Below, one piece after another: positions 3,943 through 20,573 of a DNA stretch of 20,573 nt. The notes under the pieces were generated by a model, which saw nothing but the letters and a program-made list of their open reading frames with translations, did not search any database and was not told where the DNA came from. The first letter of the stretch is position 1. The number at the start of each line of letters is the position of its first letter. A program made the position numbers and the translations under genes. Source of the DNA: a virus; the IMG/VR virus record IMGVR_UViG_3300033149_000774, positions 1-20,573 of that record, one strand, 5' to 3'.

Positions 3943-6191
3943 TATCTTATCAATTCGCTTGTAGTACCTTTGTTGTTATATAATGCAAAGTTAAGCCTAA
4001 TTTTTGACTGTTTTTGAACAGCAGGCTGATAGAGGTGTTTTTGATTAGCCATAATAGCTAAACCACTGCTAATACTTGCATCAAATTTGGTTCTGTTGTT
4101 AATATTAAATCTTGCCCAATCTTCTAGTGTTCTTGTAAAATACATTGTCCCCATTTCATCTCTAGCTCTAAACTGACCATCAATATCTAACCCAACGTGT
4201 TTTTCAATATAGCTTTCAATGGCTGCAGCGTGTGCCTGCTTTACATCTTCTGAGCTGTTAGGTATGCCTCCTAACTCTTTTTCTGTAGACGATAATTTGT
4301 TTTTGTGTTTGTCTGGCCTGTTCATGCAAAACCCCCTGTACCCTCTGTTTTTAAAATGATACAACAATCTAGGTTTGTTGTTCTCTACTAAAATGGGCAT
4401 TCCATAAAACACACAAGCCATTAACACCTCTTCAAAGAATATCTCTGCAGTTTGTGGTCTAGCCACATATTGTAAAAAGAATTGATTAGTAGGAGCATCT
4501 TCCATGTGAAACTTGGTCATTCCATGCAAAGCGCCATTAGACCCTCCTCCACCAACAGTGCCAGAAATGTCATAGCTATCACAACCAAAAGATCCTAAAT
4601 GTTCGTTGCCAGGATATTTTACATTGTTTCTTACACTTAACCTGTTTTGCAGGTTTCGCTTGGGCAACCATGAAACTAAAAACCTCCCTTTGTTGTCTGG
4701 AGTCCAGACCACCTTGCTGTCTTTTATTCCATTCTCCCAATAAAACTTACCTCTAGTTAAAAAATGCTCTGGAATCAAAGAATCGTTATAGTCTATCTGT
4801 TGGTAAATCTTAGTAAGATTAAATAATGAAGCCTTACTCTCATCTCTGAACGCATGAGATTCAGACCTTGGAAACTGTCGATAAAATTCATTTAAGGCAT
4901 CTGAATCGTGTTTTAAAGACGTAACTTCATTCTTCCAGTAGTCAACTGCACCTTGGTATATATATTCGTTGTCTACGCCTAATATTTCTTTCTCAGGATT
5001 TTCAAATACAGGCATCCCATATCTATCTATAAACCCTTCCATGTTCCACTCCATAGGGATAAAAAGATTATACAAACCAGATTTGGTTTGGCCATTAGCA
5101 TTTCTTTTTTCTAAACTAGAGTCGTAATATAATTTTTTAAAATTGTCTCCCCCTTTTTCTAAAGCATTACAAGTGCTACCCATCATGCACTTACCAATAA
5201 CCTTATTGCCCAATCGCAAACAGGTTTTTGTTACTCTCCAGTTGCTAAGGATATTATTTGGTCGTATCCACTTTCCACTTTCGTCATGCACTAACAACAA
5301 AAGCTTTTCTCCATCGTATGAGTTTTCATCTGTGTTCTTCCAGTCAATAGTGGTGTCTAACCCATCCACTTCTTGAGCAGCAACATCATACATGTTCTTT
5401 TTTGTAATCTTACTAGCAGGTACACGATAGGCTAATTCTGTTTTAGGCTTATCCATACCATCTTGAACAGGTTTAAAAAAGAATGGATAATTGTTTGATA
5501 TGGGAACAACTTTGTCTGTAAACATTTTTTTAGCATCAGCACCAGTCTTTGATAGTATGCCTATGCGTGAGTCCTTAGCTAAAGTAGCGTTATTTACAGC
5601 TTCTGAAGACCCCATAAAAGAAAACCCAGAGCGCCTAATCTTTAAATAACACATTCCAAAAGACCTTTTATCTGCCTTGCATGCTTCCCAAAATATATAA
5701 AACAATCTATTGGCTTCTCTAAAATCTGGAAGGCCAACATCTATTTTTGTCCATTGCAAATAGGTATAATGACTGCCTGTTATATATGTAGGCTTGCCAT
5801 TGTTCATAAACCAAAAACCACCCTCTCTTCTATCAAACTCACTTTCAATATAATCTACCCACTTTGCCTTAAAAGACGAGGGCATTTCATTCCATTGGAA
5901 AATGCTTTTTACTTTGGATAATTCTTTGGGGTAATCAAAAGATTCCCAATACTGTTCAAGAGATTTATTGCTCCTAGAATAACACTTTTTAGGCGTTGAA
6001 GGTAATGCAATTTTTAAATGATTTATTTCATAGATGTCTCCTATTGTGCCATCTTTAGATATAACTACGATATCATATTTGCTATCATATCCATACGCCC
6101 ATGTTTTAGCCTTGTTTTTTCTTGACAAAACAGACTGCGGAATTACTTTCGTAATAACCCTACATAAACTATTTGGATCTTCGTTCTGCAA
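3942..6191 (-). CDS. terL: Terminase large subunit (packaging ATPase-nuclease)
   Basis: A 749-residue DNA-packaging motor. Its N-terminal ATPase powers translocation and its C-terminal RNase H-like nuclease cuts the concatemer. Visible motifs: a degenerate Walker A at about 186-192 (RRSGFSF, lacking the usual GK[ST]); Walker B LLLLVHDES at about 297-305 with D303/E304; and nuclease acidic residues in FGCDSYD (D538), near ILVEN (E603) and KFDASISSG (D704). The start is TTG (6189-6191). An in-frame TAA lies four codons upstream, and the first internal ATG is about 100 residues in, so TTG is the only plausible start. It overlaps the upstream small gene by 23 bp and is coupled to portal by TAATG. 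Confidence 0.9.
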   Translation of the reverse strand: MQNEDPNSLCRVITKVIPQSVLSRKNKAKTWAYGYDSKYDIVVISKDGTIGDIYEINHLKIALPSTPKKCYSRSNKSLEQYWESFDYPKELSKVKSIFQWNEMPSSFKAKWVDYIESEFDRREGGFWFMNNGKPTYITGSHYTYLQWTKIDVGLPDFREANRLFYIFWEACKADKRSFGMCYLKIRRSGFSFMGSSEAVNNATLAKDSRIGILSKTGADAKKMFTDKVVPISNNYPFFFKPVQDGMDKPKTELAYRVPASKITKKNMYDVAAQEVDGLDTTIDWKNTDENSYDGEKLLLLVHDESGKWIRPNNILSNWRVTKTCLRLGNKVIGKCMMGSTCNALEKGGDNFKKLYYDSSLEKRNANGQTKSGLYNLFIPMEWNMEGFIDRYGMPVFENPEKEILGVDNEYIYQGAVDYWKNEVTSLKHDSDALNEFYRQFPRSESHAFRDESKASLFNLTKIYQQIDYNDSLIPEHFLTRGKFYWENGIKDSKVVWTPDNKGRFLVSWLPKRNLQNRLSVRNNVKYPGNEHLGSFGCDSYDISGTVGGGGSNGALHGMTKFHMEDAPTNQFFLQYVARPQTAEIFFEEVLMACVFYGMPILVENNKPRLLYHFKNRGYRGFCMNRPDKHKNKLSSTEKELGGIPNSSEDVKQAHAAAIESYIEKHVGLDIDGQFRARDEMGTMYFTRTLEDWARFNINNRTKFDASISSGLAIMANQKHLYQPAVQKQSKIRLNFALYNNKGTTSELIR

Positions 6192-16245: not shown

Positions 16246-16692
16246 ATGAAACACTACATACCACGAGACTATCTAAAATATTATAGAGTAATTAGATATT
16301 TCTTTTGTGCCAAGTATAATATAAGCTATCCAGACCTGGAGCTTTTGTTTTTCCTATACTCAGAAAAATACTTTAAGAGAAAAGACTTTGACAACTATGC
16401 ATCTCTCTATAGCTGGGATGATAATAGGTTTTATAGACTTACTAATGCTGGGTGGATAGATACCTTTAAGAGACACAAGAGTGGTAACAAGGTAATATAC
16501 AAAGTGTCCTATAAGGCAGTAAGGATGATTGACTCCTTTTACAAAAAATTAGCTGGAGAAGAAATCCCTGAGTCCCCCTCCAGCAATCCTTTGTTTTTAA
16601 AAAATGTCAAGTACACAGATAAGGTGTACAGAAATATGATTAAAGATATGAATGAGTTTATTCGACAACAACGACATCTCGCTCCTGAATAA
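16246..16692 (+). CDS. Probable winged-helix DNA-binding protein
   Basis: A 148-residue protein, the only rightward gene in the window. Residues about 25-95 follow a winged helix-turn-helix order as in MarR/PadR-like regulators: a helix SYPDLELLFFLYSEKYF, a turn, a recognition-like segment ASLYSWDDNRFYRLTNAGWI, then a wing FKRHKSGNKVIYKVSYKAVR and a C-terminal helix MIDSFYKKLAGE. The tail after 115 is Lys/Arg-rich. Its promoter region overlaps that of the basic-protein cluster, so it could control that cluster and itself. Its 3' end overlaps groES by 35 bp tail-to-tail. The regulatory role is inferred from fold-like pattern and position. Confidence 0.6.
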   Translation: MKHYIPRDYLKYYRVIRYFFCAKYNISYPDLELLFFLYSEKYFKRKDFDNYASLYSWDDNRFYRLTNAGWIDTFKRHKSGNKVIYKVSYKAVRMIDSFYKKLAGEEIPESPSSNPLFLKNVKYTDKVYRNMIKDMNEFIRQQRHLAPE

Positions 16693-19116: not shown

Positions 19117-19320
19117 TTATAGTTTCTTAAATAAGTCTAAGTTAGCTTTTGCTAATTCATTACCCTCAGCAATCATGCGAACTTTTTCAGCTCTCTTCAT
19201 TGCCTTACGCATCTTAGCAGCTTTTGATATTCCAGAGATAGGTTCTTTAGAATCATTAATCAATCTACCCTTCTCTACTTTGAATCCTAACTCGCTAGGT
19301 TTTATATTATCTAAATACAT
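19117..19320 (-). CDS. Small basic helical protein, unknown
   Basis: A 67-residue protein: a short N-terminal part MYLDNIKPSELGFKVEKGRL, then a basic helix GISKAAKMRKAMKRAEKVRM and an amphipathic end. No family is recognised. It forms its own transcription unit, with a -7 box at 19337-19344, a leader of about 10 nt, an inverted repeat just upstream (19364-19383) and a terminator at 19061-19091. As a small basic protein bordering the CTAG-rich region it might bind that DNA or RNA, but this is speculation. Confidence 0.65.
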   Translation of the reverse strand: MYLDNIKPSELGFKVEKGRLINDSKEPISGISKAAKMRKAMKRAEKVRMIAEGNELAKANLDLFKKL

Positions 19321-19336
19321 AGTCTTTCTTTTAAAA

Positions 19337-19344
19337 CAAAGATA
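19337..19344 (-). promoter_or_regulatory. Bacteroidota-type -7 promoter box (TATCTTTG)
   Basis: Plus-strand CAAAGATA, 16 bp before ATG 19320, for the 67-residue gene. The surrounding leader is AT-rich; no clear -33 TTTG, but a palindrome occupies that area. Confidence 0.6.
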
Positions 19345-19383: not shown

Positions 19384-19490
19384 GGCGAAATACCAGCAAG
19401 ACCCCCAAAAAAAAAATCAGATTATAACCTAGCAAAAATGGGTTTTCAACCTAGCGCCTTGGATTTTTTTGGCTTTTTTCCCTAGGGCTA

Positions 19491-19520
19491 CTAGGTTAGA
19501 TCATTGGACGTTTAACCTAG
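19491..19520. repeat. Hairpin CTAGGTTA / TAACCTAG, 14-nt loop
   Basis: Perfect 8-bp inverted repeat at 19491-19498 and 19513-19520, built on two oppositely oriented CTAG sites. Could fold in RNA of either strand or as a cruciform. Confidence 0.65.
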
Positions 19521-19632
19521 CCCTACCCTAGTCTCCATGGTTTACGCAGTCCCCACATAACGCACATATTTCTAGAGACAAGCAACCACGTACATGCGTG
19601 GGCTAATAAAGAAAAAAAACGTGTGTACTAGA

Positions 19633-19659
19633 TGATGCCATCTAGGGATATTGGCATCA
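19633..19659. repeat. Hairpin TGATGCCA / TGGCATCA, 11-nt loop
   Basis: Perfect 8-bp inverted repeat at 19633-19640 and 19652-19659. The stem contains no CTAG; a CTAG lies in the loop. The pairing is therefore not a by-product of the repeat motif, which supports real secondary structure. Confidence 0.65.
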
Positions 19660-19719
19660 ATACTCCTCTTCGACTAGATACGCCAACCTAGTCTATGCCA
19701 TTCCCTCTTACCATGTCCA

Positions 19720-19747
19720 ATCTAGTGCCAACCTTCCCTCACTAGAT
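19720..19747. repeat. Hairpin ATCTAGTG / CACTAGAT, 12-nt loop
   Basis: Perfect 8-bp inverted repeat at 19720-19727 and 19740-19747, with a C/T-rich loop. Formed by two opposed CTAG sites. Confidence 0.65.
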
Positions 19748-19752
19748 AGGTA

Positions 19753-19794
19753 AACCTAGACCAATACCTTCCCTTAATCTAGTATTTCTAGGTT
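19753..19794. repeat. Thirteen-bp bulged hairpin, 14-nt loop
   Basis: AACCTAGA (19753-19760) pairs with TCTAGGTT (19787-19794). After a 2-nt CC bulge the helix continues with AATAC (19763-19767) and GTATT (19782-19786), leaving a 14-nt loop. The inner five pairs lie outside any CTAG site, so the helix extends beyond the motif. Confidence 0.7.
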
Positions 19795-20026
19795 ACAGAC
19801 AGAGAGTCTTTACCTAGCCCCATCTAGCATCTTGATTATAGCAAATATTCCCACTAGATTTAGACCCCTGCTAACCTGCTCTGTGTCAAGCAGTTACAAA
19901 GACAAGCTATTAAAATGCTGATTTTATTCTACTAGATTAGATCCTAGGTATGAGGCGAACATATTAAAATAAAAAAAATGTAAAAAAAATTTACTAGATG
20001 TGGAAGCGTAAAAAATGCGTAGACAA

Positions 20027-20057
20027 TTTGTAAATAACGAAAATGGTTGTATCTTTG
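20027..20057 (+). promoter_or_regulatory. Rightward Bacteroidota promoter TTTG-N19-TATCTTTG
   Basis: TTTG at 20027-20030 and TATCTTTG at 20050-20057 are separated by 19 bp, the most complete -33/-7 pair in the window. A start near 20062-20064 is expected. The DNA downstream encodes no protein over 60 residues in any frame, so the product is probably RNA. Confidence 0.7.
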
Positions 20058-20256
20058 GAGTGTCACTCGCTGACATCGTTCTTTTACATGCTGACCTACC
20101 TTACACTAGATGCGAACGTGCCAATTCCTAGATTGGGTACTAGTTGAAGAGTTCAAGGAACGCTAGATTAGGTAGAGATAATTTCCAAAGGTCAGATATG
20201 AATCCGAAGTACTAGATTACACGCTAGATTAGAAGACTGCCATGATAAGAGCAGTA

Positions 20257-20293
20257 GCTAACCTAGTGGACTTTCATGGTAACTAGGTTTAGC
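20257..20293 (+). repeat. Eleven-bp bulged hairpin, 14-nt loop
   Basis: GCTAACCTAGT (20257-20267) pairs with ACTAGGTT, a bulged T, then AGC (20282-20293). The loop is 14 nt, as in the hairpins at 19491 and 19753. It lies inside the candidate rightward RNA and is its strongest local helix. Confidence 0.7.
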
Positions 20294-20483
20294 CAACCAA
20301 AAAGGATAGAGTTAAGGAGGTGCGCCTCTGGAATCTCCTAGATGGGAAGCGTTCAGATACTAGATTAAATCTGAGAACAACCTAGTGAGAGTAGAGAGAA
20401 TAACCTAGGAAAAGGATTGAGGGGATGAAAATTCTGAAATCGAAACTAGATTAGCAGACCTAGTAGGTGTAGATAAGGACTAG

Positions 20484-20514
20484 ATGGTAAACCAAAAAGG
20501 GTTAAGCCTACCAT
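20484..20514 (+). repeat. Two-part stem ATGGTA-AACC / GGTT-TACCAT
   Basis: ATGGTA (20484-20489) pairs with TACCAT (20509-20514). Inside, AACC (20490-20493) pairs with GGTT (20500-20503) around AAAAAG, leaving AAGCC unpaired on the 3' side. No CTAG in the helix except its first bases overlapping a site. Confidence 0.6.
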
Positions 20515-20573
20515 AAGTCACTAGAAGTAATCGAACAAACACCGAAACGCATCATGAAGTCTAATCTAGTCCA

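Follow-up and report, generated by a model that had tools for sequence, protein, structure and literature searches.

A dense array of directional, orientation-spaced CTAG sites in the gene-poor end of a podovirus-like phage contig

We have analysed a window that is the whole 20,573-base IMG/VR contig of a podovirus-like phage, with a gene set that includes a terminase (phrog_6681), a portal protein (phrog_6547) and GroES- and GroEL-like genes. By terminase, its nearest named relatives are the environmental podovirus genome MW202828 (74% identity) and phages of Flavobacterium, Cellulophaga and other flavobacteria. At the end of the contig, adjoining a conserved 67-aa ORF and GroEL, lies a block crowded with the tetramer CTAG (Table 1). 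The contig end truncates this block, and the 99.96% identical contig G001/L009 reaches window-equivalent position 20804. In the related contigs L010 and L011, the other flank of the locus carries divergent genes including ArdC (PF08401/PF18818), so that the CTAG block lies between two divergent operons. A 46-aa ORF in L009 and L010 begins just beyond the window end, at equivalent ~20631. Neither the 67-aa ORF nor the DNA of the block matched named phages, and an ARAGORN search of the window, L009, L010, L011 and L012 found no tRNA.

Table 1. Features at and near the CTAG block, in window coordinates
Feature	Position	Strand	Basis or remark
MarR-like winged-helix protein (phrog_17028), candidate array binder	16246..16692	+	profile, fold
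67-aa conserved ORF, locus marker	19117..19320	-	56 loci with an encoded relative in IMG/VR
TATCTTTG promoter element of the 67-aa ORF/GroEL side	19336..19343	-	directed away from the array
CTAG array, 39 sites	19429..20569		counts, motif fitting; nearly all ACTAGRTT(R) in either orientation
Family-conserved element AAAAAAGCCAAAAAAATCC	19461..19480	-	sequence; relatives' own motif arrays adjoin the element
Exact ACTAGGTT site (example)	19490..19497	+	convergent with the TTAACCTAG site on the opposite strand at 19517, at a distance of 26 bp
Convergent pair CTAGRT-N6-AYCTAG, spaced exactly 14 bp	19628..19645		one of four
Other 14-bp convergent pairs	starts 19674, 19742, 20446
Antisense ORF, 50 aa	19924-20076		ORF list; sole ORF inside the window's block
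Promoter TTG-N19-TATCTTTG	20027..20056	+	Bacteroidetes-type by consensus, pointing to the divergent early genes
Possible type-II hammerhead, left part AATC-GAAA-CTAGATTAG ... CTAATCTAG-TT	20438..20573	+	Rfam E 0.031, below gathering score; manual reading

The promoter of the early side fits the Bacteroidetes consensus TAnnTTTG and sits in a site-poor stretch of the array (19998-20105), a gap whose size is not unusual for this number of sites. Early genes of the relatives are joined via CTAGATATG (starts at L010:861-1070 and 1-858; L011:2763), and in L010 its TAG terminates one gene while its ATG opens the following one. Elements matching TAACTnnyTGAttnTCAgtnnnTTA are dispersed in the gene-free region of relatives, at L163:7360-7610 and in upstream regions of L157 and L177, and one lies at 19873-19897 of the window; they are possible family-wide iterons. 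Three hairpins in L011 (1700-1760, 4024-4106 and 4170-4250) look like tRNA T-arms with the loop TTCGATT, and ARAGORN made no tRNA call for them.

The initial annotation had reported 39 CTAG sites at about ten times the level elsewhere, and this enrichment proved real. The block holds 39 CTAG in 1141 bp (19429-20569), one per 29 bp, and is 12.3-fold denser than the remaining 19428 bp of the window with 54. The first-order Markov expectation for the block is 8.3, and 1000 dinucleotide shuffles of it gave a mean of 8.5 (sd 2.6) and a maximum of 17. By the ratio of observed to expected counts, CTAG ranks first in the block among all 256 tetramers, and the count in the rest of the window, which the initial annotation had proposed as a check, is at or below expectation (54 vs ~72). 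With the extension from L009, the full array comprises 43 CTAG sites in ~1.4 kb. The description of the block as gene-free holds inside the window, where the short antisense ORF is the only one; on the other hand, freedom from genes is not essential to the signal, since the excess enters coding genes in L010.

The sites are directional. An 8-base signature, ACTAGRTT/AAYCTAGT, had been proposed; the extension beyond CTAG is borne out, and its corrected form is a directional CTAG-R-T-(T/G)-R preceded by A. The unit of the array is thus the asymmetric ACTAGRTT(R), with the orientation of each site on the palindromic CTAG assigned by fitting. CTAG is followed by A or G in 42 of the 43 sites and then by T in 38, and the flanks carry 3.95 bits of information, whereas none of 200 random CTAG sets subjected to identical fitting exceeded 2.16. 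The window contains 13 exact copies of ACTAGRTT, every one between 19490 and 20570. The sites of the array face both ways, with the strong ones confined to the early side, and the recurring sequence spans only about 9 bp within unique flanks.

The distance between neighbouring sites varies with their relative orientation: 22-23 and 12 bp for tandem, 14 bp (four times) for convergent and 20 bp (three times) for divergent neighbours. A single rule fits all three classes, namely a motif centre shifted by 1.5 bp from the middle of CTAG in the direction of RTT, and a period of 11.2 bp. The phasing resultant is 0.69 vs a null mean of 0.25, with none of 300 nulls as high under an identical parameter search, and when all pairs up to 250 bp are included, the observed value stands above all 200 nulls. 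Analysed separately, the two halves of the array gave 0.83 at 1.5/11.4 and 0.55 at 1.0/11.1 (fixed-parameter p<0.001 for each half). Without an offset, the best score drops to 0.37; the fitted offset coincides with the middle of the nine-base motif, without that position having been supplied as input. A step of 11.2 bp is what would be expected of B-DNA underwound by ~6% (10.5/0.94), and AA/TT periodicity was too weak to fix the helical repeat of this DNA. The L010 array reproduces the phasing and is not an independent replicate, because it is 97-100% identical to L009 there. The diverged relative L011 did not show the phasing (p about 0.4-0.55), nor did the coding part of L010, both of which offer few close pairs, and the other short-motif arrays of relatives at the locus have no common 11-bp step.

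In L010 and L011, the CTAG excess runs on into early coding genes; in L010 these are the genes for ArdC, a 69-aa and a 124-aa protein, with 22 CTAG in 1443 coding bases. Leucine codons standing before a G-codon are CTA in 16 of 21 cases in the L010 early genes and 8 of 19 in those of L011, vs 9 of 120 in the late genes of the window (p = 6e-11 for L010 early vs window late; p=0.026 for L011 early vs L011 late). Compared with the other leucine codons of these early genes, those before G are more often CTA (p=0.009 in L010, p=0.001 in L011), and L010 also uses CTA frequently when no G follows (10/28). This codon bias points to selection acting on the CTAG tetramer itself, most simply at the DNA level.

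Considering the relatives, the enrichment at the same locus, another check named by the initial annotation, recurs in L009 and L010, is weaker in L011 and is absent in L369, L370 and L375. L009 and L010 have 41 of 43 sites in common. Their identity changes sharply at ~19608, from 84-91% on the left to 97-100% on the right, which suggests a recent exchange; therefore, the high identity there was not taken as proof of constraint. Recombination was considered as the sole cause and rejected as such. Left of the step, six of seven CTAG sites have been retained although their flanks have changed, a pattern that is no more than suggestive. L011, with a GroEL 59-60% identical, has a weaker and differently arranged excess, and L369, as distant by GroEL as L011, has none and carries a G-rich array instead.

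Across 53 relative loci (L143-L195), CTAG is often depleted, and 12 loci of 8-16 kb contain none where 21-49 are expected (L143, L147, L150, L151, L156, L161, L162, L164, L181, L182, L184 and L188). Such total absence suggests that some hosts of the family restrict DNA at CTAG. Most relatives repeat short words at the same locus, and the words differ by lineage: CTAGRTT here, and AACGGGG-, ACAGG-, ACGCG- or GGCAG-like ones elsewhere. Many 260-bp blocks of the relatives contain 2-3.4 times the repeated 6-mers of their own shuffles, as compared with 0.8-1.6 for coding controls; in the blocks of L163, L167 and L185, this repetition is absent or barely present. A-tracts, C/G-runs and repeat arrays are retained at the locus across the family. 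At the equivalent locus of MW202828 (Manatee Spring phage; L316:4900-5350), there is a dense ACGCG/GCGAC array, part of which is annotated as a hypothetical protein gene.

Beyond the family, degenerate-pattern scans of viral contigs yielded chance clusters among the matches listed, and a scan of genome contigs found no comparable array; L391 was rejected as a 7-bp tandem repeat. The ATCTAGTTG arrays of the cyanophage-type contigs L337, L344, L345 and L324 were not equated with the CTAG array, as they lack its phasing (p 0.05-0.89). Dense AATCTAGTTGTG/ATCTAGATG arrays lie at L337:4800-5260, L344:1850-2250, L345:2780-3280 and 4440-4720, and L324:2540-2760, mixed in some contigs with the palindrome ATCTCGTCGAGAT, and L344 and L345 show DNA similarity to Synechococcus phages.

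We consider, with a probability of roughly 55%, that the block is a helically phased array of sites for one sequence-specific DNA-binding protein, lying in a control region between the divergent operons. A binding array was among the possibilities first raised, and it gains support from the asymmetric motif, the orientation-coded ~11.2-bp steps and the selection for the tetramer inside coding DNA. The region that it occupies would control the divergent early operon on one side and the 67-aa/GroEL operon on the other. Each ACTAGRTT(R) word would be one site for a single protein in either orientation, and the spacing would set the motif centres on one face of underwound DNA. Bound proteins may touch their neighbours and build a cooperative nucleoprotein cluster around the early promoter, the output of which would be control of early transcription and/or of replication start. 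The binder is presumably encoded by the phage.

The MarR-like protein is a candidate for this binder on thin evidence. It has 148 residues, and its search matched 59 sequences including the window's own, with nearly every relative represented. Its model (pLDDT 88.6) has a winged-helix fold with a Foldseek probability of 1.0 (best E 1e-3), and sequence profile matches to MarR have E 0.07 or worse. The window, L010 and L011 have in common an HKSGN wing and, within the predicted recognition helix, Tyr63; the other 20 aligned sequences differ there. As only these three related sequences share the residues, they do not prove a link between the protein and CTAG, and relatives with the same MarR-like protein have other array motifs. 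Dimers of MarR proteins recognise inverted half-sites separated by about one turn, and by analogy the 14-bp convergent pairs would suit such binding. The scope of this assignment is a contig that ends short of the early region, where another regulator may lie.

Among known systems, the array resembles operator and centromere arrays but lacks some defining features of stoperators, parC and iterons and was therefore assigned to none of these classes; it may act as an operator, an origin or a partition site, or as the packaging site that the initial annotation also named. Cluster A mycobacteriophages have stoperators, short asymmetric sites of the L5 repressor present in >20 copies per genome, whose motif and repressor specificity co-vary between relatives (PMC9283540, PMC6550527). 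The likeness lies in many short asymmetric sites of one motif, here 43 oriented sites. However, stoperators are 13-mers spread over the genome, intergenic and mostly one-way relative to transcription, whereas the CTAG sites are crowded in ~1.4 kb in both orientations.

It is unlikely that the sites are instead the functional core of a replication origin or a partition site, with iterons or parC-like repeats rather than transcriptional operators. The position between divergent operons and the A-tracts, C/G-runs and repeat arrays retained across the family would fit such a core, as would the iteron-like tandem spacings of 22-23 and 12 bp. Iterons at phage and plasmid origins are longer, near-identical direct repeats. 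The array shares with iteron origins a control region, tandem spacing near 22 bp and a place beside A-rich sequence, and its steps are regular; yet its unit is short and occurs in both orientations within unique sequence. As for partition, the ParR of plasmid R1 needs 11-bp repeats (PMC9426499), and the array likewise has repeats at about one-turn spacing. It differs in having far more sites in both orientations, and it recurs over only ~9 bp as compared with the direct repeats of 10-20 bp in ParMRC systems. No parM or parR gene was found among the scanned proteins of the window, L010 and L011, in which the early region is incomplete, and no initiator or ParR gene is tied to the array. The spread of the excess into L010 coding genes and the location of the Elemovirus replication genes elsewhere also argue against this alternative.

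The proposal that the block is the imprint of RNA helices is not supported. In its fullest form, the CTAG words would be the helix arms of a long folded transcript, perhaps with hammerhead ribozymes as its basis, and we regard this as quite unlikely. It draws on relatives that carry hammerheads between early genes, and on the weak type-II match at the right end of the array, whose helix III can be read as CTAGATTAG/CTAATCTAG. The CTGATGA core of this candidate lies beyond the window (~20593-20601), and the same candidate stands at L009:200-370 (minus strand), where CUGANGA, GAAA, NUH and three helices can be read in what is a weak match. A matching helix III is weak evidence because CTAGATTAG and its complement abound in the array, and helix II is broken by an insertion in L010. 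In that contig, a terminator-like insertion, AAGGTCGGAGACCTTTTTT, follows directly after the CTGATGA core. A short hairpin of the sites at 19429 and 19451 still pairs in L010 despite changes on both sides. However, in their variable flanks, opposite neighbours pair at the same rate as randomly chosen sites (2.42 vs 2.41 of 4 positions, p=0.53), three of the four 14-bp convergent pairs have an A.C mismatch just beyond CTAG, and 150-nt folding z-scores in the array are mostly weak, between -2 and +1, with a lowest value of -3.1. An Rfam scan of the block gave nothing above gathering, and CTAG is favoured inside coding genes too.

The hammerheads of the relatives deserve description in themselves. 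A scan for CTGANGA-stem-GAAA found hammerhead-like ribozymes in many relatives, on the early-sense strand except for a few chance-like matches and in many cases immediately before the start of the following gene. L163:2532-6745 (minus strand) carries nine in ~4 kb with complementary helices I, II and III and, in eight of nine, a GTC cleavage site; by sequence, CUGANGA, GAAA and NUH are joined there by three helices, with scores below Rfam gathering. Further ribozymes of this type (CTGANGA, stem, CGAAA, hairpin, GTC) occur in L011, L151, L158, L159, L167, L184, L188, L193 and L317. Clustered hammerhead ribozymes have already been described in prophages (PMC3088659). The relatives of this phage are similar in having hammerheads between early genes; the difference is that hammerheads do not explain the CTAG array itself.

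A role in restriction-modification, with the tetramer as a methylation mark like GATC at E. coli oriC, is the least probable alternative, for although CTAG is under strong selection in the family and the CTAG-free relative loci look as they would under a CTAG-cutting host, a methylase palindrome explains neither the RTT flank nor the off-centre phasing, and no methylase gene was identified in the window, which excludes the early region. The oriC cluster of palindromic GATC tetramers works with Dam/SeqA. There, as here, a palindromic tetramer stands far above background in a control region and helical-face spacing matters, whereas the present motif has a direction, and its phasing runs from a centre that is not that of the tetramer.

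Returning to the binding array, a wider reading is that the family keeps a motif array at one control locus, with each lineage swapping the motif and co-evolving it with the conserved MarR-like protein. We offer this only tentatively and find it doubtful. If true, the array would be the phage analogue of rapidly evolving centromeres or immunity sites, and its CTAG version would have spread into coding genes through synonymous codons.

In summary, to our knowledge, few natural arrays combine so many copies of one short directional word with measurable helical phasing. The spacing gives an estimate of the step from within the sequence, 11.2-11.4 bp, which is near that of underwound DNA. If a phage protein binds the array, the family would provide a natural motif-swap series for change in a regulator and its site array, and the hammerhead-punctuated early operons of the relatives are a second testable system.
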